A stretch of DNA of 34,436 nucleotides, taken from positions 64,001 through 98,436 of the IMG/VR virus record IMGVR_UViG_3300040801_001819, one strand, 5' to 3'. Below the pieces are notes generated by a model. It was not told the DNA's origin. It was given only the letters and a program-made list of their open reading frames with translations, and searched no databases. This DNA is from a virus. This document shows positions 1,456-24,423 of the stretch, piece by piece. Each line of letters begins with the position of its first letter. The stretch's first letter is position 1. Both the position numbers and the translations under genes were made by a program.

Positions 1456-2103
1456 ATGGTAAAACATGAATACAATGTAATCACTGTATCAAGTTATACT
1501 TGTGATGTGGTTGAAAGAAGACAATTGATAATCAAAGGCTTTAAGACAGAAAAAAGTCTAAAAAACAAAAATATGGGAAAGAACAAAGGTGATGTAGTGA
1601 TACAGAGACACTTTCAACAGAAATATAATGTTGATAGAGATCATTCTGTATTATTATTTAAAAAGAAGAAGAAGTTACAATATCTTATTGATTCTGTTTC
1701 TGATGAAGCAGGAGTAGATATTACTTTGACAACTAGACAAAGAGAATTAGTTTATTTAAGAGCAGTTTATTTTAGACTTGCAATTGAATTGACTAAATAC
1801 TCATACGCATCAATTGCTGATCTTGTTAACAGGGATCATGCAACAGTTACACACGCAATGACAACTGTTTGGGAAGAAATAGAAACTTATAGACCTGACA
1901 TATATGATATATATGAAAAATTAGTGACAGATATGGATGACCAACAATTCGCTGAGTTAAAGGTGCTTAGAATATCAAAGAAGATGAGAGAAATAGAAAA
2001 AACTCTTGACAACGTAAAGAGAGAATTAAATAAAGATTATTTCTCACTTCAACAAAAGTTAGTTAATGTTAAAAAAGTTGCATACAATGAAACATTAAAT
2101 TAA
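1456..2103 (+). CDS. Protein with DnaA domain IV-like DNA-binding helix-turn-helix
   Basis: 215 residues from ATG 1456; a second Met at residue 40 (1573) is an alternative start. Residues about 90-140 (LTTRQRELVYLRAVYFRLA... ASIADLVNRDHATVTHA) match the C-terminal DnaA-box-binding domain of bacterial DnaA. This includes the signature block, here RDHATVTHA at 126-134 (family usually RDHTTVxHA). No AAA+ ATPase domain is present. Residues about 165-210 are a charged helix (KKMREIEKTLDNVKRELNK), probably a coiled coil. A role in binding DnaA-box-like sites in phage or host DNA is inferred. It is an isolated gene between two tRNA-like regions, so it may be transcribed separately. Confidence 0.75.
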   Translation: MVKHEYNVITVSSYTCDVVERRQLIIKGFKTEKSLKNKNMGKNKGDVVIQRHFQQKYNVDRDHSVLLFKKKKKLQYLIDSVSDEAGVDITLTTRQRELVYLRAVYFRLAIELTKYSYASIADLVNRDHATVTHAMTTVWEEIETYRPDIYDIYEKLVTDMDDQQFAELKVLRISKKMREIEKTLDNVKRELNKDYFSLQQKLVNVKKVAYNETLN

Positions 2104-2109
2104 GTTATG

Positions 2110-2133
2110 ATATATCATCTAATAATGATATAT
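2110..2133 (+). other. 9-bp perfect hairpin preceding a tRNA-like element
   Basis: atatatcat (2110-2118) pairs perfectly with atgatatat (2125-2133) around the 6-nt loop ctaata. It begins 6 nt after the stop of the DnaA-like gene and ends 3 nt before the acceptor-like stem at 2137. It is A/T-only apart from one C-G pair and is not followed by a T-run, so it is a poor terminator. It may be a processing signal for the downstream RNA. Confidence 0.5.
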
Positions 2134-2136
2134 TGA

Positions 2137-2187
2137 GTCACCATAATTCTAGACGTGGTTAGGCTGGTTCGATTCCAACATGGTGAC
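2137..2187 (+). ncRNA. Minimal tRNA-like RNA (acceptor + T arm, no normal anticodon arm)
   Basis: gtcaccat (2137-2144) pairs with atggtgac (2180-2187), 8 perfect bp like a tRNA acceptor. The 3' half carries a T arm with the canonical loop ttcgatt (2168-2174) and stem gctgg/ccaac (one C-A mismatch). Only 18 nt (2145-2162) remain for the D and anticodon arms; they can form a single 4-bp hairpin (ctag/ttag, one G-U). Total length is about 51 nt, against about 75 for a tRNA. CCA is not encoded at the 3' end. It is followed 40 nt later by a strong terminator. Function unknown. Confidence 0.5.
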
Positions 2188-2226
2188 CTATTCAGATGTT
2201 TTCTGTTGATTTAGTTGGTTGGTTGA

Positions 2227-2281
2227 TGAGACGGAGTATGTCTAAAACTATATACAGTAAGAACTCCGTCTCATTTTTTTT
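2227..2281 (+). terminator. Rho-independent terminator, 11-bp stem
   Basis: tgagacggagt (2227-2237) pairs perfectly with actccgtctca (2263-2273), followed by eight T residues (2274-2281). The loop is unusually long (25 nt). It ends transcription from the DnaA-like gene and the tRNA-like RNA at 2137, and separates them from the second tRNA-like element at 2297. Confidence 0.8.
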
Positions 2282-2296
2282 AAAGAAATTAATCTT

Positions 2297-2380
2297 GACT
2301 ATAACCCTTAGTAGAGTAGCTATAACGTCAGGTGTTGTTACTTGAAGACGCGGGTTCGAATCCACGCAGGCTAGGTAGTC
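2297..2380 (+). ncRNA. tRNA-like RNA with irregular cloverleaf
   Basis: gactat (2297-2302) pairs with gtagtc (2375-2380, one wobble) as an acceptor-like stem. A short D-like arm is tag/cta (2309-2311/2320-2322). An anticodon-like stem, tcaggt with acttga (2328-2333/2340-2345), closes a 6-nt loop gttgtt. The T arm has the canonical loop ttcgaat (2355-2361) and a GCG-GG/CC-a-CGC stem with one bulged A. Six extra nt (2368-2373) separate the T arm from the acceptor. The irregular loops mean I cannot assign an anticodon. It is either a decayed tRNA or a structural mimic. Confidence 0.4.
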
Positions 2381-2395
2381 AGTAAATAAACAAAA

Positions 2396-2545
2396 ATGGA
2401 TTGGATTTACACAAACCCTGAAAAACCAGGTAAATATGTAGTACAAACAAAAAGCACTCTTAAAACACATACTTTATCATCACAATTTAATGATAATGGT
2501 TGGTCGTTTAAAAATCAAGTGTTTTATAGATACTTAAAAGAATGA
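2396..2545 (+). CDS. Small protein, 49 aa, unknown function
   Basis: Short frame: ATG at 2396, stop TGA at 2543-2545. Sequence layout: MDWIYTNPEKPGKYVV, then TLSSQFNDNGWSF, then a basic end (YRYLKE). The start MDWIYTNPEKPGKY resembles the opening of many short phage proteins with a W-x-x-(x)-P-x-x-G-x-Y pattern. It follows the tRNA-like RNA by 15 nt, behind an A-rich leader. Its stop overlaps the next start (ATGA), which supports a real gene in an operon. Confidence 0.65.
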   Translation: MDWIYTNPEKPGKYVVQTKSTLKTHTLSSQFNDNGWSFKNQVFYRYLKE

Positions 2546-2685
2546 AATTAATTTACATGAACCATACTCTTAATTGGCTCCATCAAAAAGGAATCAATAT
2601 AGAAGTAGATGATAATGTAAAAGTCACTCAAAATGATGAATACATAGTAATAGAAGAAGTTAAATCAATAAAAGAAAAAAATTAA
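2542..2685 (+). CDS. Small acidic protein, 47 aa, unknown function
   Basis: ATG at 2542 overlaps the preceding TGA, and its TAA (2683-2685) overlaps the next ATG at 2685. This double coupling is typical of this genome. The protein starts MKLIYMNHTLNWLHQKG and ends in a Glu/Lys-rich segment (YIVIEEVKSIKEKN). No domain is recognised. Confidence rests on the gene packing. Confidence 0.6.
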   Translation: MKLIYMNHTLNWLHQKGINIEVDDNVKVTQNDEYIVIEEVKSIKEKN

Positions 2686-2921
2686 TGACAGCAATAGAAT
2701 ATGCGTACAGGTTATTACCATTATTAATAATCATTTTGGCTTATAAATGGCCTAGAATAACATTAATATTGGTATGCATGTTACTCAAATGGTGGGTAGC
2801 AGCTATTGGAGTCTTGATTGTGTCTATCTTAGCTTTAGTTAAGATAAGCGTGAAAAAGATGACAAGAGAGGAATATGAAGAGTATATAGCAGAAAAAGAA
2901 CAAGAAGATGACAATTCTTAA
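2685..2921 (+). CDS. Small membrane protein
   Basis: 78 residues. Residues about 10-20 (LLPLLIIILAY) and about 25-52 (ITLILVCMLLKWW then IGVLIVSILALV) are strongly hydrophobic, giving two or three inner-membrane helices. The tail of about 25 residues is charged and ends in an acidic stretch (EKEQEDDNS). This resembles small phage membrane proteins of unknown role; a holin-like role cannot be excluded, but no lysin is nearby. The start overlaps the previous stop and the end overlaps the next gene by 14 nt. Confidence 0.7.
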   Translation: MTAIEYAYRLLPLLIIILAYKWPRITLILVCMLLKWWVAAIGVLIVSILALVKISVKKMTREEYEEYIAEKEQEDDNS

Positions 2922-3156
2922 GAAAAAAGCATTTCATGTTACCATAGACTCGAGGCTTATGAAAGCCCATGAACAAATAAGAGACACCGTTATTTGGAGA
3001 TCATCTAACGGTAATCAAAAGCTTTATAAAGAATTAGATATTAATCATCTAAAAAATATAATAGCTAAGATTGAGCGTGGTGAGCTAGAAGATAGATTAC
3101 ACCAATTATTCGACTTAAAAAATGAAATAGATTACAGAAACTTAAAAAATGAGTAA
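2908..3156 (+). CDS. Small charged protein with N-terminal LKKK tag
   Basis: 82 residues starting MTILKKKAFHV, an example of the Met-hydrophobic-Lys-cluster N-terminus repeated across this window. The rest is predicted helical (LKNIIAKIERGELEDRLHQLFDLKNEI). It overlaps the genes on both sides (14 nt and 8 nt), so it is in one transcript with them. No recognised domain. Confidence 0.7.
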   Translation: MTILKKKAFHVTIDSRLMKAHEQIRDTVIWRSSNGNQKLYKELDINHLKNIIAKIERGELEDRLHQLFDLKNEIDYRNLKNE

Positions 3157-3562
3157 AACAGAAGAAACAGAAGACACGCAAGCATTTAAGGATTTTCAAA
3201 AATCTTTAAGTGTAAAAGAATTTGAAACAATTTATCGTATATGCAAAGAAAGATACTATAAATTAAGTCAAATTTTAGAAGACAGGGAAAAATTTATGAA
3301 TAAAATACTTGAGCAAGTTGAAATGACTAAACAACAAGTTGAAGATATCCCTGATGAAAAGAGAAAAGACGCGTTAAAAGGCGTTATTAAACTAATGCAT
3401 GCATTAGGTAGAAAAGGAGACAGAAAAATGTTTAAAGACTTGCATTCAGATGTAATGGAAGCAAGACATTTAACTGAATTCTTAAACAGATTTAGTCCAG
3501 ATAGTGATTCATTCGAAGAATTAGATTTTTCATTCTTAAAAGAAATAGCAAATGAAGTATAA
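3149..3562 (+). CDS. Helical/coiled-coil protein of unknown function
   Basis: 137 residues, Glu/Lys-rich and almost entirely helix-forming. Residues about 35-75 (LSQILEDREKFMNKIL... VEMTKQQVEDIPDEKR) look like a coiled coil. It has one Cys and no membrane segment. It overlaps the upstream gene by 8 nt and the downstream gene by 11 nt. Family unknown. Confidence 0.7.
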   Translation: MSKTEETEDTQAFKDFQKSLSVKEFETIYRICKERYYKLSQILEDREKFMNKILEQVEMTKQQVEDIPDEKRKDALKGVIKLMHALGRKGDRKMFKDLHSDVMEARHLTEFLNRFSPDSDSFEELDFSFLKEIANEV

Positions 3563-3905
3563 ATTATTAGTATTATCAGCATTTTTCTTCATAACAGGAG
3601 GATTTTTTATAGGAACATTATTTAATAGTGATCCAAACACTTCAATAACAATAATCATACTTTCTTGTTCAAATCTACTTTTTATTTCCCTTATGATGAC
3701 AGCATTTAAAATGCTTAAAAATCAACGTAATGATGGTTTAAAAGATGGATACAAAGAAGGTGTTGATGATATTATGGCTGGAGTGTATGAAGAATACGGT
3801 GATGAAGGCACAGATAAAGTTGCAAAGGCAGCTAAAAAAGTTCTTAGTAGAGAAGGAAAGATCAAAACAAAAGGAAACAAGGTGCATATTCACATGCATC
3901 AGTAA
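3552..3905 (+). CDS. Membrane protein with two TM helices and basic tail
   Basis: 117 residues. TM1 is about residues 4-23 (LLVLSAFFFITGGFFIGTLF) and TM2 about 31-52 (ITIIILSCSNLLFISLMM). The cytoplasmic half carries a repeat-like GLKDGYKEGVDDI motif and ends KVHIHMHQ, a His-rich tail that could bind metal. An overlapping frame at 3745-3984 is a shadow. It is the last gene before the structured RNA at 3914. Confidence 0.7.
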   Translation: MKYKLLVLSAFFFITGGFFIGTLFNSDPNTSITIIILSCSNLLFISLMMTAFKMLKNQRNDGLKDGYKEGVDDIMAGVYEEYGDEGTDKVAKAAKKVLSREGKIKTKGNKVHIHMHQ

Positions 3906-3913
3906 GGTAGTTA

Positions 3914-4009
3914 TTCCCTTGGATGGCCGGTTATTAGTAGCACTCGATGTGTCACAAACTATGGTGCTAGCGTTTAGCTGTTAACAAGAACAATTGTGAC
4001 CCAGGGGAA
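3914..4009 (+). ncRNA. Structured RNA with closed H-type pseudoknot, upstream of AAA+ ATPase gene
   Basis: P1: ttcccttgg (3914-3922) pairs with ccaggggaa (4001-4009), 9 bp with one G-U. P2: tagcac (3938-3943) with gtgcta (3964-3969). P3: gtcacaa (3951-3957) with ttgtgac (3994-4000). P3 starts inside the P2 loop and closes outside it, which makes a pseudoknot, and its 3' strand runs directly into P1, allowing coaxial stacking. It sits 25 nt before the ATG at 4035 in an otherwise unexplained 129-nt gap. It could be a leader regulator, a ribozyme or a stable small RNA. No known family fits by eye. Confidence 0.5.
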
Positions 4010-4034
4010 ACTTAACTAAAACTAAATCAAAAAG

Positions 4035-5099
4035 ATGATATTACAGGATAACAAAATTTATTTTAAAAACATGCAAGTTGATACTATACCAGCTGTACCT
4101 CCGGGTAATTGGTTAGTTAGATTCGATGAAAGAGATTTATTCTTTTTCTTAGAGAAAATGCATGACTTTACAATACCAGAGAAGATATATGGTGATTGTG
4201 ATTACTTAACCGATAGGTACTTAAAGACATTTAAGAAGTATGACAAGAACTTAGGAATATCATTATCAGGTGTTAAAGGAACAGGAAAAAGCTTAACAGC
4301 TAAAATGTTAGCAATGAAGAGTGATCTTGCTGTTATTATTATTAATGAACCATTTACTGGTTCAATGTTTAATTCTTTTATTGAATCAATAAACCAAGAG
4401 TGTATTGTATTCATAGATGAATTCGAAAAAGTATATGCTAGATCTGAAGATCAATCAGCTATGCTTACTTTATTGGATGGTGCGTTCATGTCTAAAAAGT
4501 TGTTCTTGTTTACAAGTAATGAAACTTCTAGATTCAGCAACTATCTAATGAATAGACCAGGTCGAATTCATTATTTCAAAGAATATAAGCGTATTGATGA
4601 CAAAACATTAACACAAATCATTGATGACACCTTAGTTGATAAAACTAAGGAAGAAGAATTAAGAACAATCATTAATTTGATTGATGACGCAAACATAGAT
4701 ATGGTGTTCTCTCTTATTAGAGAGATGAATGATTTCAACGAAGGAGCTAAAGAAGCTGTTGAACATTTAAATATCAGTATTTCTAGTGATTCAGAACATA
4801 AGATTCTAATACAAACAAAGAATCATGCTGTTTATGAGCAAACAATTAGTAAAAACCCATTCTTTTATGGAGGGTTTAATGATTGGTTCGCTCTTGATCA
4901 GGAATTAAGTAAGGCAGCAGGGTTGACTGAAGATGATAAGATAAAGCTCTCTGAAACAGGTGATGACGAAAAGAGATTTGTCTGTAAAATACAGGAATGC
5001 ACTACTATCAAAGCTACATCTGAGTATTCTCAACTTGTTGATGAATACGGAAATATTATTACAATTAAAAAATTATCACCATATAGGTTTGTATTTTAA
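4035..5099 (+). CDS. AAA+ ATPase
   Basis: 354 residues. Walker A is GVKGTGKS at about 79-86, Walker B IVFIDEFEK at about 124-132, and a sensor-1-like segment LFLFTSNETSR follows near 155; NRPGRIHYF is the AAA arginine-finger/sensor region. The family uses ATP to remodel protein or DNA complexes, and this type is common in large phages with unknown targets. The C-terminal third (after about 250) has no recognised domain. It has its own leader carrying the pseudoknotted RNA, so its expression may be regulated separately. Confidence 0.85.
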   Translation: MILQDNKIYFKNMQVDTIPAVPPGNWLVRFDERDLFFFLEKMHDFTIPEKIYGDCDYLTDRYLKTFKKYDKNLGISLSGVKGTGKSLTAKMLAMKSDLAVIIINEPFTGSMFNSFIESINQECIVFIDEFEKVYARSEDQSAMLTLLDGAFMSKKLFLFTSNETSRFSNYLMNRPGRIHYFKEYKRIDDKTLTQIIDDTLVDKTKEEELRTIINLIDDANIDMVFSLIREMNDFNEGAKEAVEHLNISISSDSEHKILIQTKNHAVYEQTISKNPFFYGGFNDWFALDQELSKAAGLTEDDKIKLSETGDDEKRFVCKIQECTTIKATSEYSQLVDEYGNIITIKKLSPYRFVF

Positions 5100-5208
5100 C
5101 TAATTACCGCAAGGTAAGTTAATTACACCTGATAAAGGAGTAGAATTATTAAATTCGGGAGAGGCATTAGAGTCTCTCCCATTAATCTAAAACAAAAACA
5201 ATAAGAAC
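5100..5208 (+). promoter_or_regulatory. Intergenic leader with two hairpins
   Basis: Hairpin 1: ttacc (5104-5108), GNRA loop gcaa, ggtaa (5113-5117). Hairpin 2: gggagag (5157-5163) with ctctccc (5174-5180), loop 10 nt. No T-run follows hairpin 2, so it is not a standard terminator. It lies 28 nt before the next ATG and may stabilise the mRNA or control the gene at 5209. Confidence 0.35.
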
Positions 5209-5826
5209 ATGTTTGGACTATTTAAAAAAGGAAACAACAAAGGTAAAGGTTCGCTAAAACCTGTATCACCAGAAGGTGAACAAATAAGCAAACCAATTTC
5301 AGGAACTATACAAGGTAAGTTGAGACATGCTCTTGAACTTATGGCATATGTGCTTGAAAATAACCTGAATAAAGATCAGCATATTCTCACATTTGTGGCA
5401 ACAGCTGATCCAGATGCTCGAGAAGGAGAATCAGGTATAGAAAGCATGGATTGTGCTTTCGTAAGAGCTAGTGATGAATCAATTGGACAGATACTTATGC
5501 AAGTAGGTATGCGCGATGATACATTTGCTAAAGCTATTATTGATGTTGCGCAAGCAATACAATTTCATAAACCTCATCTAAAAGATTACGCTGACGATTT
5601 AATGGATAAAGTTAGAGAAGGAAAGCGTAATGGAGAAATACCTAAAACTTCTAACTACAAAGGTAGCAATGTAAAAGGCAAAAGAAGAGGTCTTAACATT
5701 GAAGAATTTGGAAAGAATATGAAAGGTATTAACATTGATGATCTATCTAAAGCATCTGATGAAGAAATTGATGACTTGATAGATCGTCTAATAAATAGCG
5801 CAAGAGATGAAGAAGACGAGGATTAG
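5209..5826 (+). CDS. Unknown protein with acidic C-terminus, N-terminal FKK tag
   Basis: 205 residues. It begins MFGLFKKGNNKGKG, one of the recurrent hydrophobic-plus-lysine N-termini. Residues about 35-130 are a compact, probably alpha/beta domain (LRHALELMAYVLENN, ILTFVATADPD). The tail is very acidic (DDLIDRLINSARDEEDED), a feature often seen in ssDNA-binding or adaptor proteins; this is only suggestive. It overlaps the helicase gene by 20 nt, suggesting coordinated production. Confidence 0.7.
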   Translation: MFGLFKKGNNKGKGSLKPVSPEGEQISKPISGTIQGKLRHALELMAYVLENNLNKDQHILTFVATADPDAREGESGIESMDCAFVRASDESIGQILMQVGMRDDTFAKAIIDVAQAIQFHKPHLKDYADDLMDKVREGKRNGEIPKTSNYKGSNVKGKRRGLNIEEFGKNMKGINIDDLSKASDEEIDDLIDRLINSARDEEDED

Positions 5827-7063
5827 TACTGAAGAGAGTAATAGGATAAAATCCGAAATACAATCTCTTGCAGTTCAAATTTCTCAGTCTAATAAACACT
5901 TGTGTTTAGAATGGAGCACAGGCGTGGGCAAATCTCTTGAATCTATAAGGATAATAGAGGATATTTTAAGTACGCGTAGAAATTCACATGGTCTATTAAT
6001 ATGCAAAGAGTCAACCCATTTGAGAAATTGGGAGGATGAGTTTGTGAAGCATAAGAAAAAAACAGTTATGACAAAGGTTTCTATGTTCCTTTATGCTTCT
6101 TTACATAAGCACCAGCATCACTCGACGCATCCAGATTTCATTATACTGGACGAATGCCACGCATTAACGGATAAAAGAGTATCACTTTTGAAAAGCCTAA
6201 TTGGCCCTGTAACAAAGGTGATACTTTTATCTGCTACTATTCCGATGGACAAGAAAGACCTAATAAAAGGTCTCTTAGGAAATGTGTATAACTATAAAAT
6301 ACCATTATTGAAAGCAATTGACTTAGGTTTGTTGCCAACACCCGAACTTGTAGTTCACAAAATGGGTTTAACACCTACGGGTAATCATGAGTTTCAATTC
6401 AAAAAAGCTAGTAAAGGAAAGAAAACTGTCAATTGTAAGTATAGTGATATGTGGAATGTTCAGAAATCATTACCAAAAGGCACTGGTTTACTTGTTAAAT
6501 GTAATGAAATTCAGTATTATGAGTTAATCACTAAGCAAATGAGTTATTATCAAGAGCAATCTCAGACTAATAATTCTTATCAAATACGTCAAGCATGTCG
6601 AAATAAATTCTTAAATTTGGGATCCCAAAGAAAAAAGTTTATTTCTAAAGTAAAAACAGATAAAGCAGCCAGCATTGTTAAACAATTTAGAGGCTCTCAG
6701 AAGAGGTTTATTTGTTTTACTGGTGCAATAGAACAGTCAGTAAAGTTAGGCTCTAAAAGTGCTGTTAATTCCAAGAATACGAAGGAAGATAACCAGAGCT
6801 TAATAGACTGCTTTAATGATGGCTCTTGTAGTGAGCTGTTTGCTGTTAAAATGCTTCGCGAAGGAATAAACTTATCGAATATAGAGAAAGGAATAATTGT
6901 TCAATTGGACAGTACCGTGGGGTCATTCTTTCAAATGTTTGGTAGGTGTTTAAGGCATGAATTTCCAGAGATGCATCTAATTGTGGTGAAAGACACACAA
7001 GACGAGGTGTACTTTGATAATGCAATGCAGGATTTTGATAATAAATACGTAACATATGCTTAG
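5807..7063 (+). CDS. Superfamily 2 DNA helicase
   Basis: 418 residues. Motif I (Walker A) STGVGKS at 37-43; motif II LDECHAL, D115 onward (DECH box); motif III LLSATIP about 138-144; motif VI QMFGRCLRHE near 375. Order and spacing fit an SF2 UvsW/RecG-like translocase that uses ATP to unwind or remodel branched DNA. The start at 5807 lies inside the previous gene's end, fitting the overlapping style; a later Met would lose motif I. It is a plausible branch-migration or replication-restart enzyme in this module. Confidence 0.85.
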   Translation: MKKTRISTEESNRIKSEIQSLAVQISQSNKHLCLEWSTGVGKSLESIRIIEDILSTRRNSHGLLICKESTHLRNWEDEFVKHKKKTVMTKVSMFLYASLHKHQHHSTHPDFIILDECHALTDKRVSLLKSLIGPVTKVILLSATIPMDKKDLIKGLLGNVYNYKIPLLKAIDLGLLPTPELVVHKMGLTPTGNHEFQFKKASKGKKTVNCKYSDMWNVQKSLPKGTGLLVKCNEIQYYELITKQMSYYQEQSQTNNSYQIRQACRNKFLNLGSQRKKFISKVKTDKAASIVKQFRGSQKRFICFTGAIEQSVKLGSKSAVNSKNTKEDNQSLIDCFNDGSCSELFAVKMLREGINLSNIEKGIIVQLDSTVGSFFQMFGRCLRHEFPEMHLIVVKDTQDEVYFDNAMQDFDNKYVTYA

Positions 7064-13076: not shown

Positions 13077-13877
13077 AAACAAAATGGGCCCTATACAAGT
13101 AATTGTATTAGGATAATTTCTTTAATTGCTGGAAAATCCTTATGAAAGGACAATCAGCAGCCAAGCATATTTTAGATAAAATAGGCAAAACATATAATAA
13201 TATTAAAATACTTTCAATTAATGATAGAATTAAAGGTAGAATATACTATAATATTAAATGCCTTAATTGTGGAAAAGAGTCAATTATGAGAAGTGATAGA
13301 TTTACTGGAACACAAAAATTAAAAACATGTAAGCATTGTCGTCAAGATGAGGCTATCAAAACATCGAAAAATAAAGCAACACATTTAACAGTGTATAATG
13401 CTTTATATTATTCATATAGAAATAATGCAATAAATAGAGGTTTTGAATTTAAACTAAAAAAAGAAGAATTTATAAATATAACAAGTAAAAATTGTTATTA
13501 TTGTAATTCCGAACCAATTGAAACAAAAGCATCAATAAATTACAATAAAACAAAAAAAAACATGTTTTAGTTAATGGTATTGATAGAAAGGACAATTCAA
13601 TTGGATATACCAAAAAAAATTCAGTACCATGTTGCACTAAATGCAATATGATGAAAAAGAATTTGGGTGAAAATGAGTTTATAGATCATGTTTATAAAAT
13701 ATCTAAATATATGAAGGTTCAACGACTAGAGCATTTTGCTCGTACACTACAAGCAAATGGTAGTGGAAATGGGAAACATCCTGAGACGGATGAAGATATA
13801 GTCTAGTCTGTATAGTAATATACAGCAGTTCATAAGAGAACGAATCATTTAGTTGCGCGAATGATTGAATATTAACG
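13077..13877 (+). other. Group I intron (801 nt) in the Sak4-like gene
   Basis: The upstream exon ends in U (13076), the intron in G (13877). P1: exon gcct (13073-13076) pairs with intron gggc (13086-13089), including the U-G wobble at the splice site. P7: gacta (13724-13728) pairs with tagtc (13799-13803) within the conserved gaagatatagtc segment, and gttcaacgactag (13717-13729) is a recognisable group I core block. Removing 13077-13877 joins residues QTP to MGANFQ in frame. An HNH gene lies inside. Confidence 0.8.
13142..13806 (+). pseudogene. Intron-encoded HNH homing endonuclease, frameshifted
   Basis: ATG 13142 gives 142 residues: N-terminal Zn-like CxxC pairs (CLNCGKE, CKHCRQD), then KNCYYCNSEPIE (HNH start). 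The frame stops just after nine A residues (13552-13560). One extra A would open a frame reading LVNGIDRKDNSIGY...PCCTKCNMMKKNLGE, the HNH core with the conserved Asn-Gly-Ile-Asp-Arg, and run to 13806. As written, the catalytic core is lost. Either it is dead, or the 9-A tract is miscounted or slips. Confidence 0.7.
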
Positions 13878-21930: not shown

Positions 21931-23809
21931 GTGGGGCCCGTTAGGCTACATCACCCACGCTAGAACATATTCTAGAACAAAAAAAGATGGAACAAAAGAA
22001 ACATTTACGGAAGGAATAGAGCGTGAACTATCTGGAATTTCCAAACAGTTGAAACTTGTTCTCACAGAAGATGAGAAAGAGTTTTATCGTGATATGAGAC
22101 ACAATATGGAAGGTTCTGTTGCAGGACGTTTTATGTGGCAGTTAGGCACAAAGACAGTTGATCAATTAGGTTTACCTAGTTTACAGAACTGTGCATTTAC
22201 TGTTGTAGACCATCCTATTAGGCCTTTTACATGGGCAATGGACATGCTGATGCTTGGTTCAGGAGTAGGATACTCAATTAAACGCGAACACGTATTCAAA
22301 CTACCAAAGGTGGTAAATAAAAAGTTAAAAATAGAAAGGTTTGATGATAAGCAAGCTGATTTTATAGTGCCAGATACCCGGGAGGGGTGGGTTAAATTAC
22401 TTGGAAAAGTATTAAAAGCTCACTTTTACTCAGGAGAAGGATTTACTTATAGCTGTCAGCTAATTAGAGGCTATGGTGAGGATATTAAAGGGTTTGGAGG
22501 CGTTGCTTCTGGACCAACTATCCTTGTTGAAGGTCTTGAAAAAATCGTTGAAGTGATTCAAAATAGAAGAGGTAAGCAACTACGCCCTATTGATTGTTTA
22601 GATATTATGAACATCATTGGGAGTATAGTAGTAGCAGGTAATGTTAGACGCTCAGCTCAAATTGCCATAGGAGACTATGATGATTTAGAGTACTTGAAAG
22701 CTAAGAGATGGGATTTAGGTCCTATTCCTAATTGGAGAGGAATGAGTAATAACTCTGTTGACTGTTATGATGCAAAGTTACTCCCACAAGAGTTTTGGGA
22801 TACTTATCAACAAGGAGAACCATACGGATTGATAAACATAGCTTTATCTAAGAAAGTTGGTAGAATTGGTGAGTATAAATATCCTGATCCGAGAGTAGAA
22901 GGTTTTAATCCTTGCGCAGAGCAGTCTTTAGAAGATAAAGAAACTTGCTGCTTAGCAGAAGTTTACTTACCTAACATAACTAGTTATGATAGGTTTAAGA
23001 AAGTAATAACAATGCTGTATAGAGTTAATAAGCATTCATTAGCTCTAAAGTGTCATCATCCAGAAACTCAAGAAGTTGTTAACAACAATATGAGAATGGG
23101 AATAGGCATTACAGGAGTGATGATGGCTTCAGATGAACAATTAAGTTGGTTGAATCCAGGATACGCGTACTTAAGAGAATATGACAAAACATACTCTAAG
23201 GCGATGGGATTTCCGGAAAGTATAAAACTTACCACGGTAAAACCAAGTGGAACATTATCACTATTAGCAGGTGTAACACCAGGAGTTCATCCATCAGTGG
23301 CTGGACAGTATTATATAAGAAGAATAACTATGAGTTCAAGCTCACCTTTAGTAGAGGTTTGTAAGACTCATGGATATCATGTAGAATTTAAAGAGAACTT
23401 TGATGGAACTCTTGATAGGTCTAGTATGATTGTAGAATTCCCTTGTAAATATCCAGACGGTGTTCCATCATTTGATGATCTTACTGTATTTGAGCAACTC
23501 GAGACAGTGAAGTTTATGCAGAAAAATTGGTCAGATAACTCTGTGTCAGTTACAGCATACTACACTAAAGAAGATTTGCCTGCTCTTAAAAAATACATTG
23601 AAGAGAATTTTGCTGAGAATTTTAAAACACTTAGTTTCTTACTTCAAGGAAGTACTTCAGGATTTAAACAATTACCTGAAGAACCTATTAGTAAAGAACA
23701 GTACGAGTACTTGATTGCAAGAGTCAAACCTATTGAATCCGTAGTGATTAATGAGGAAGATTTTGATGATTTAGGTGCTTGTGGGATTGGTGGCTGTCCC
23801 GTGAAATAG
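21899..23809 (+). CDS. Adenosylcobalamin-dependent (class II) ribonucleotide reductase
   Basis: 636 residues; ATG 21899, with a second Met at residue 5. The first redox Cys is QNCAF (C98), the radical Cys is in NPCAEQSLE at about 338-346, and its partner is in ETCCLAEV just after. SGTLSLLAGVTPGVHP and the C-terminal CGIGGCPVK (CxxGxC reducing pair) are typical of the monomeric B12-dependent triphosphate reductase. It turns NTPs into dNTPs using cobalamin and needs no oxygen. Length is below the roughly 740 residues of the Lactobacillus enzyme. Confidence 0.9.
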   Translation: MKVKMKERKVKWGPLGYITHARTYSRTKKDGTKETFTEGIERELSGISKQLKLVLTEDEKEFYRDMRHNMEGSVAGRFMWQLGTKTVDQLGLPSLQNCAFTVVDHPIRPFTWAMDMLMLGSGVGYSIKREHVFKLPKVVNKKLKIERFDDKQADFIVPDTREGWVKLLGKVLKAHFYSGEGFTYSCQLIRGYGEDIKGFGGVASGPTILVEGLEKIVEVIQNRRGKQLRPIDCLDIMNIIGSIVVAGNVRRSAQIAIGDYDDLEYLKAKRWDLGPIPNWRGMSNNSVDCYDAKLLPQEFWDTYQQGEPYGLINIALSKKVGRIGEYKYPDPRVEGFNPCAEQSLEDKETCCLAEVYLPNITSYDRFKKVITMLYRVNKHSLALKCHHPETQEVVNNNMRMGIGITGVMMASDEQLSWLNPGYAYLREYDKTYSKAMGFPESIKLTTVKPSGTLSLLAGVTPGVHPSVAGQYYIRRITMSSSSPLVEVCKTHGYHVEFKENFDGTLDRSSMIVEFPCKYPDGVPSFDDLTVFEQLETVKFMQKNWSDNSVSVTAYYTKEDLPALKKYIEENFAENFKTLSFLLQGSTSGFKQLPEEPISKEQYEYLIARVKPIESVVINEEDFDDLGACGIGGCPVK

Positions 23810-23814
23810 GCCTG

Positions 23815-23846
23815 TTTGCCCAATTGAATTATTTTTTGTATATTTA
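23815..23846 (+). promoter_or_regulatory. Bacteroidetes-type promoter candidate
   Basis: TTTG (23815-23818), a 20-nt spacer, then TATATTTA (23839-23846), one base away from TAnnTTTG. The expected start site falls near the ATG of the HNH gene at 23851, so the message may be leaderless or nearly so. Confidence 0.4.
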
Positions 23847-23850
23847 TAAT

Positions 23851-24423
23851 ATGGGAAATAAAAAAGTTGATTTGACAGGAAAAACATTCGGCAAACTAAC
23901 AGTAGTTAAGTTGGCTGGATCTAGTCGTGGAGGCAGTAAACTATGGGAGTGTAAGTGCAATTGTGGAAATGAAAAGCTTGTTTCCACAAGGCACTTAAAT
24001 AGGAAAAATAATAATATCAGATCTTGCGGTTGTTTAAATAATAACAACATAACGGGTGAGCGTAACGCCTCCTGGAAAGGCTCTGGTAATATTAGTGGTA
24101 ACTTTTTTGGCAAACATGTTAAAAAAAGTGCAAAAAGAAGAAGTAAAAATGGAAGAAAATTAGACGTTACTATTGATGCAAAATATCTTGATGATTTATG
24201 GAATAAACAGAAAGGTAAATGTGCTTATACTAATGAAAAATTAACTCTTCCTAAAAAGTGGAATGATAAAGATTATACAGCGTCAGTAGATAGAATTGAT
24301 TCTTCTAAAGGGTATATCCCTGGAAATGTTCAGTTTGTATCTCAACATGTTAATCTAATGAAAAATAAATTCACACATAACTTCTTTGTAGAAACTTGTA
24401 AAAAAATAGCAAGTTTTAAGTAA
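23851..24423 (+). CDS. Free-standing HNH homing endonuclease
   Basis: 190 residues from ATG 23851. N-terminal KTFGKLTVVKLAG and WECKCNCGNE ... RSCGCLN (Cys pairs that may bind zinc) precede the HNH part: KGKCAYTNEKL, then SVDRIDSSKGYIPGNVQFVS and NLMKNKF, a standard phage HNH endonuclease layout. The codon use and preceding promoter suggest an independent unit inserted after the RNR. RNR's C-terminus is intact, so this is not an RNR intron. Upstream in-frame codons (from 23779) overlap RNR and are not used. Confidence 0.8.
   Translation: MGNKKVDLTGKTFGKLTVVKLAGSSRGGSKLWECKCNCGNEKLVSTRHLNRKNNNIRSCGCLNNNNITGERNASWKGSGNISGNFFGKHVKKSAKRRSKNGRKLDVTIDAKYLDDLWNKQKGKCAYTNEKLTLPKKWNDKDYTASVDRIDSSKGYIPGNVQFVSQHVNLMKNKFTHNFFVETCKKIASFK

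Follow-up and report, generated by a model that had tools for sequence, protein, structure and literature searches.

A conserved, structured RNA with a closed H-type pseudoknot is supported in the replication region of a crAss-like phage by covariation in each of its three proposed helices, across three sequences only. The RNA, hereafter element 1 (3914-4009), was found in a window of 34,436 nt corresponding to positions 64001-98436 of the 98.4-kb virus record IMGVR_UViG_3300040801_001819. Given the matched changes of paired bases in a diverged relative, the fold is very probably real. We tentatively favor, as the leading reading at somewhat less than even confidence, that element 1 is co-transcribed with the replication-region mRNA of this phage and acts on it in cis.

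Element 1 occupies most of a non-coding gap that extends from the stop of the 3552-3905 gene to the AUG of an AAA+ ATPase gene. The sequence-only reading of this DNA had described a 129-nt gap holding helices of 9, 6, and 7 bp, two of them crossing, and had P3 abutting P1 directly; the gap measures 129 nt (3906-4034), P1, P2, and P3 are present with those lengths (Table 1), P3 crosses P2, and no nucleotide separates the 3' strands of P3 and P1. Two further helices were not on that list: P4, which encloses P2, and an outer P0 (3908-3913/4013-4018), which is present in the window and is not conserved. The nested minimum free energy (MFE) fold of the gap contains P1, P2, and P4 and leaves the P3 strands free except for weak local hairpins, so P3 can be added on top of it. 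Unpaired segments (GGAUGGC, GAUGU, and, in the leader, CUAAAUCAA) are conserved beside a variable but covarying P2, a pattern suggestive of a binding core. No frame is free of stops through the element in every one of the three genomes.

Table 1. Coordinates of element 1, its helices, and the features that follow it in the window.
Feature	Position	Strand	Evidence
P1, 5' strand UUCCCUUGG (9 bp)	3914..3922	+	Pair 3919/4004 is U.G in the window, U-A in G001, and C-G in L042
P4, 5' strand CGGUUA	3928..3933	+	MFE fold; third pair G-C in the window, A-U in L042 (1-nt register shift)
P2, 5' strand UAGCAC (6 bp)	3938..3943	+	UAUAAC/GUUAUA in L042: two pairs with compensatory change on both sides
P3 (pseudoknot), 5' strand GUCACAA, inside P2 loop (7 bp)	3951..3957	+	Pair 3957/3994 A-U in the window, C-G in L042
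P2, 3' strand GUGCUA	3964..3969	+	Helix and covariation
P4, 3' strand UAGCUG	3975..3980	+	MFE fold; comparison with L042
P3 (pseudoknot), 3' strand UUGUGAC, adjoins P1	3994..4000	+	Helix and covariation
P1, 3' strand CCAGGGGAA	4001..4009	+	Helix and covariation
A-rich leader, mostly unstructured, UAAA repeats, before AUG	4010..4034	+	CUAAAUCAA kept in three of three genomes
AAA+ ATPase gene	4035..5099	+	phrog_2376, PF00004; micro-ORFs in G001 and L042
Second covarying RNA block (element 2)	5097..5180	+	Consecutive hairpins, invariant UUACACCUGAUAAAGGAGUAGA, terminal GGGAGAGGC/GUCUCUCCC stem
Next cistrons: g5209 (function not known) and SF2-type helicase	5209..7063	+	Downstream genes present in three of three genomes

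Uncultured relatives were gathered using proteins from the window. Over their overlap with the window, locus L001 and other loci from its contig show no differences; G001 (locus L039) carries element 1 at about 96% identity; and L042 carries a diverged homologue in the same place. The distinct sequences thus number three, with that of G001 nearly identical to the window. In L042, two pairs of P2 are replaced on both sides (GC to UA and CG to AU), and P3 becomes GUCACAC/GUGUGAC through an AU to CG exchange. The three states of pair 3919/4004 in P1 fit an RNA read from the + strand. Across the three-sequence alignment (A3), 96.7% of cells are standard pairs and four pairs have changed on both sides. 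When the partners were slid by 1-3 columns, 0-1 double-changed pairs remained and 29-41% of cells were paired, while shuffling the 3' letters, a moderate control, matched the observed covariation in 16 of 500 trials. In simulation, six random substitutions in P2 and P3 leave all 13 pairs intact with a probability of 7e-4. In P4, a G-C pair of the window is A-U in L042, with a one-base shift of register, which brings the compensatory pairs to five.

Because P1-P3 had been fixed before the homologue was seen, their covariation is a real test of a prediction; P4 carries less weight, as it had not been defined beforehand. The sequence-only reading had staked its three helices on covariation, and that stake was honored: same-locus homologues, as a new RNA family would have, show compensatory changes in P1, P2, and P3, and the signal is lost when partners are slid. 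The L042 copy lacks two outer pairs of P1, and its unconstrained nested MFE fold differs.

At roughly 30-40% identity, the DnaB and primase of the window find their closest counterparts in Crassvirales, among them Cellulophaga phage phi14:2 and cr108_1 of Steigviridae; judged by these proteins, the source is a crAss-like phage whose family is unassigned. That element 1 fits no known RNA family, as first proposed by eye, was borne out in both modes of Rfam 15: the standard mode returned no matches in the window, and the permissive mode, run up to E=10, gave E=1.4 and 6.7 at best, scores well short of the threshold, and no family for the element. In IMG/VR, a closing-helix pattern recovered the same virus and otherwise chance matches without the other helices, and core patterns recovered only the same three viruses and chance matches, mostly in coding sequence. 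The core pattern had no match in the GTDB genome collection, nor did blastn against phage records return any for element 1. Covariance models R1 and R2 detected no fourth member over 492 kb of relatives or in whole records of further relatives, AAA-bearing phages, and two Steigviridae. By these searches, element 1 represents a small family confined, in the collections covered, to one narrow crAss-like clade. In a limited literature search, we came upon no account of a structured regulatory RNA from crAss-like phages.

Element 1 begins 8 nt past a stop codon within a packed, co-directional gene run, and its position is constant in all three genomes: after g3552 and before element 2 and the g5209-helicase pair. 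The gene between the two RNAs is not constant. It has been deleted down to ATGATGTATTTTAA in G001 and down to ATGATATTACAAGACAAAAAGTTTGTGTTTTAA in L042, the latter a remnant with matches to both termini of the gene in the window; element 1 is kept in both genomes. AAA homologues in L002-L015 occur without element 1. The link to the AAA+ ATPase that the first description implied is therefore not upheld, since an RNA leader of that gene would be expected to travel with it, whereas G001 and L042 have the RNA only and L002-L015 the ATPase only. That the RNA persists where the ATPase is gone argues only in part for its independence, as the losses could be recent. The deletion end points differ between G001 and L042, which suggests at least two separate deletions, each leaving an in-frame micro-ORF and possibly mediated by short, similar TTTRTNTTTTAA-like repeats at both ends of the gene. 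Any assignment of a regulated gene is tentative, since the cistron immediately downstream is missing from two of the three genomes. Upstream of the AAA homologue of L002 lies an intergenic long inverted repeat, AUACUGGUAAUA...UAUUACCAGUAU (L002:5640-5735), of unrelated sequence.

Element 2 directly follows the ATPase gene and accompanies element 1 in three of three genomes. Every cell of its alignment is paired, with 3 double-changed pairs, and its invariant stretch runs for 22 nt; other matches to an 18-mer pattern search were unrelated sequence. In a neighboring clade (L048:5691-5850, L050:2119-2278, and L070:3252-3411), the corresponding site ahead of the helicase operon holds a structured non-coding block of 160-193 nt. 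One hairpin of this block appears to covary, its forms being CAUUCGC/GUGGAUG, CACUCGC/GUGGGUG, and UACUCGC/GUGAGUA. A different structured RNA, with a closing stem and inner helices, occurs at L046:2690-2838, L051:800-950, L058:3630-3809, and L054:2860-3046; its alignment (A2) holds 8 double-changed pairs across the four sequences, and no Rfam family matches it at the gathering threshold. We rejected it as a homologue of element 1, given the lack of a shared core sequence and of a match with either covariance model.

Elsewhere in the window, tRNA-like sequences lie at 1261-1419, 2137-2188, and about 2295-2385. They are not called by ARAGORN in default mode and may be tRNA genes that have decayed or diverged; an insertion is possible in one, and one scores 28.1 bits with the Rfam tRNA model, just under threshold, while its G001 copy passes. 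At about 2225-2282, a strong hairpin (ATGAGACGGAGT...ACTCCGTCTCAT) followed by eight T was seen by eye and is likely an intrinsic terminator, probably missed by the terminator scan owing to its long loop. A group I intron at about 13078-13877 (Rfam RF00028, E=1.5e-8, below the gathering score) carries an endonuclease-like ORF and splits a nucleotide-binding protein gene that is uninterrupted in G001. A second endonuclease-like ORF (23779-24423, by eye from the translation) directly follows a ribonucleotide-reductase-like gene.

Several alternative explanations bear on whether element 1 is an RNA at all. The sequence-only reading held that such interlocked pairing is unlikely by chance. This stands for the exact 9/6/7 abutting architecture, which did not arise once when the gap was shuffled 3000 times with dinucleotides preserved, and falls for looser forms: a relaxed 6/5/6 version arose in 48 of 3000 (1.6%), and a looser descriptor had about 2100 matches on both strands of 452 kb of related phage DNA, roughly two dozen of them with as many pairs. 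With relaxed topologies this frequent, topology alone is not decisive for a reader scanning a 34-kb window, and the decisive evidence, in our judgment, is the covariation in the diverged homologue. Chance pairing in a neutrally evolving gap could draw on that frequency and on there being only three sequences, but it is hardly credible against four double-changed pairs at predefined helices and a fifth in P4, compared with 0-1 in the slid controls, and against the empty count for the exact architecture. Alternatively, element 1 could act as DNA, for example as an origin or protein-binding site; it sits in the replication region and a gene with a DnaA C-terminal-like domain lies upstream of it, which would suit such a role. 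The covariation, however, is of the kind that suits a folded strand, with a U.G state among the pairs and a crossing helix among the helices, and we consider action as DNA very unlikely.

Other alternatives accept the RNA and differ on its function. The sequence-only reading had called such interlocked pairing typical of riboswitches, ribozymes, or nuclease-resistant RNAs. SAM-II, preQ1-II, and c-di-GMP-II riboswitches have an H-type pseudoknot core, which element 1 shares with these and others in Rfam, and its conserved unpaired nucleotides around the P1-P3 junction, covarying helices, and lack of an Rfam match would be compatible with a new ligand-sensing class controlling the downstream operon. 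Such a riboswitch is nonetheless improbable: no known class matches at E up to 10, the enclosing stem and gene context are different, no metabolic or transport gene is associated, and the element occurs in one phage clade only, its core pattern being absent from GTDB genomes. In xrRNAs the pseudoknot strand lies outside P1, and an xrRNA was rejected on this topology; an origin from tRNA or tmRNA was rejected for want of a T-arm and an ARAGORN match. Self-cleavage of the polycistronic mRNA would be useful whichever gene follows, and type P1 twister ribozymes share the helix order of element 1, with an outer P1, an interrupted hairpin, and a terminal loop that pairs back to the 3' side of the internal loop beside P1, the P1-P2-P4 and T1 of twister (PMC5408937). 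Yet no twister family matches at E up to 10; T1 comprises three Watson-Crick pairs and one non-canonical pair (PMC5408937) as opposed to the 7 bp of P3; and the conserved U-A cleavage step is not seen after P1, where GGAUGGC stands in place of UAA. A ribozyme is thus highly improbable. A stand-alone, trans-acting small RNA, with elements 1 and 2 together or apart, its own promoter or processing, and the ATPase as a passenger between them, is a weightier though still unlikely explanation. It would account for the retention of the RNA when the ATPase gene is lost, which leaves the two elements only a micro-ORF apart, and for the single 193-nt block at the matching place in the related clade. Against it, no promoter rose above background in 2000-5400 (in a scan without Bacteroidetes-type promoters), the terminator scan gave none after element 1, and the element sits immediately behind a gene in a tightly packed run. 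A bolder version, in which the pseudoknot and the 5097-5180 block form one bipartite sensor or ribozyme of a new phage functional class with the protein gene as a removable passenger, strikes us as improbable.

We rank the trans-acting RNA, riboswitch, ribozyme, and DNA-element explanations all below action in cis, either as an operator recognized by a protein or as an element that affects mRNA stability. Among known systems, the nearest in function is the operator of T4 gene 32, in which a pseudoknot precedes an unstructured UUAAA/UAAA segment that leads to the start codon (PMC535899); the likeness is one of layout, and homology is not claimed. Like the T4 operator, element 1 would lie in phage mRNA within a replication gene region, and in each the pseudoknot comes first, then an unstructured stretch containing UAAA, then the AUG (PMC535899). 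The T4 pseudoknot spans about 28 nt, whereas element 1 spans 96 nt and is closed by the 9-bp P1 around an interrupted P4-P2 stem. The T4 operator precedes the SSB gene and is bound by that gene's product, gp32, whereas element 1 precedes an AAA+ ATPase gene that is absent in two of three genomes.

In the structure that sequence and covariation support, the domain is closed by P1, P2 and P4 make up an interrupted hairpin, and the loop of P2 forms P3 with the strand that immediately precedes P1, an arrangement in which P3 and P1 can stack end to end. About 25 mostly unpaired, UAAA-rich nucleotides separate this domain from the start codon. The pseudoknot may be recognized, most likely by a phage nucleic-acid-binding protein and less likely by a small molecule, and recognition would set the translation or stability of the following mRNA, as in the T4 operator. 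The ATPase cistron is dispensable and another covarying block is found downstream in every case; the g5209-helicase operon would therefore be a likelier conserved target than the ATPase itself. A covarying pseudoknot, together with a second conserved RNA block in the replication region, would give an entry point to post-transcriptional control in crAss-like phages.
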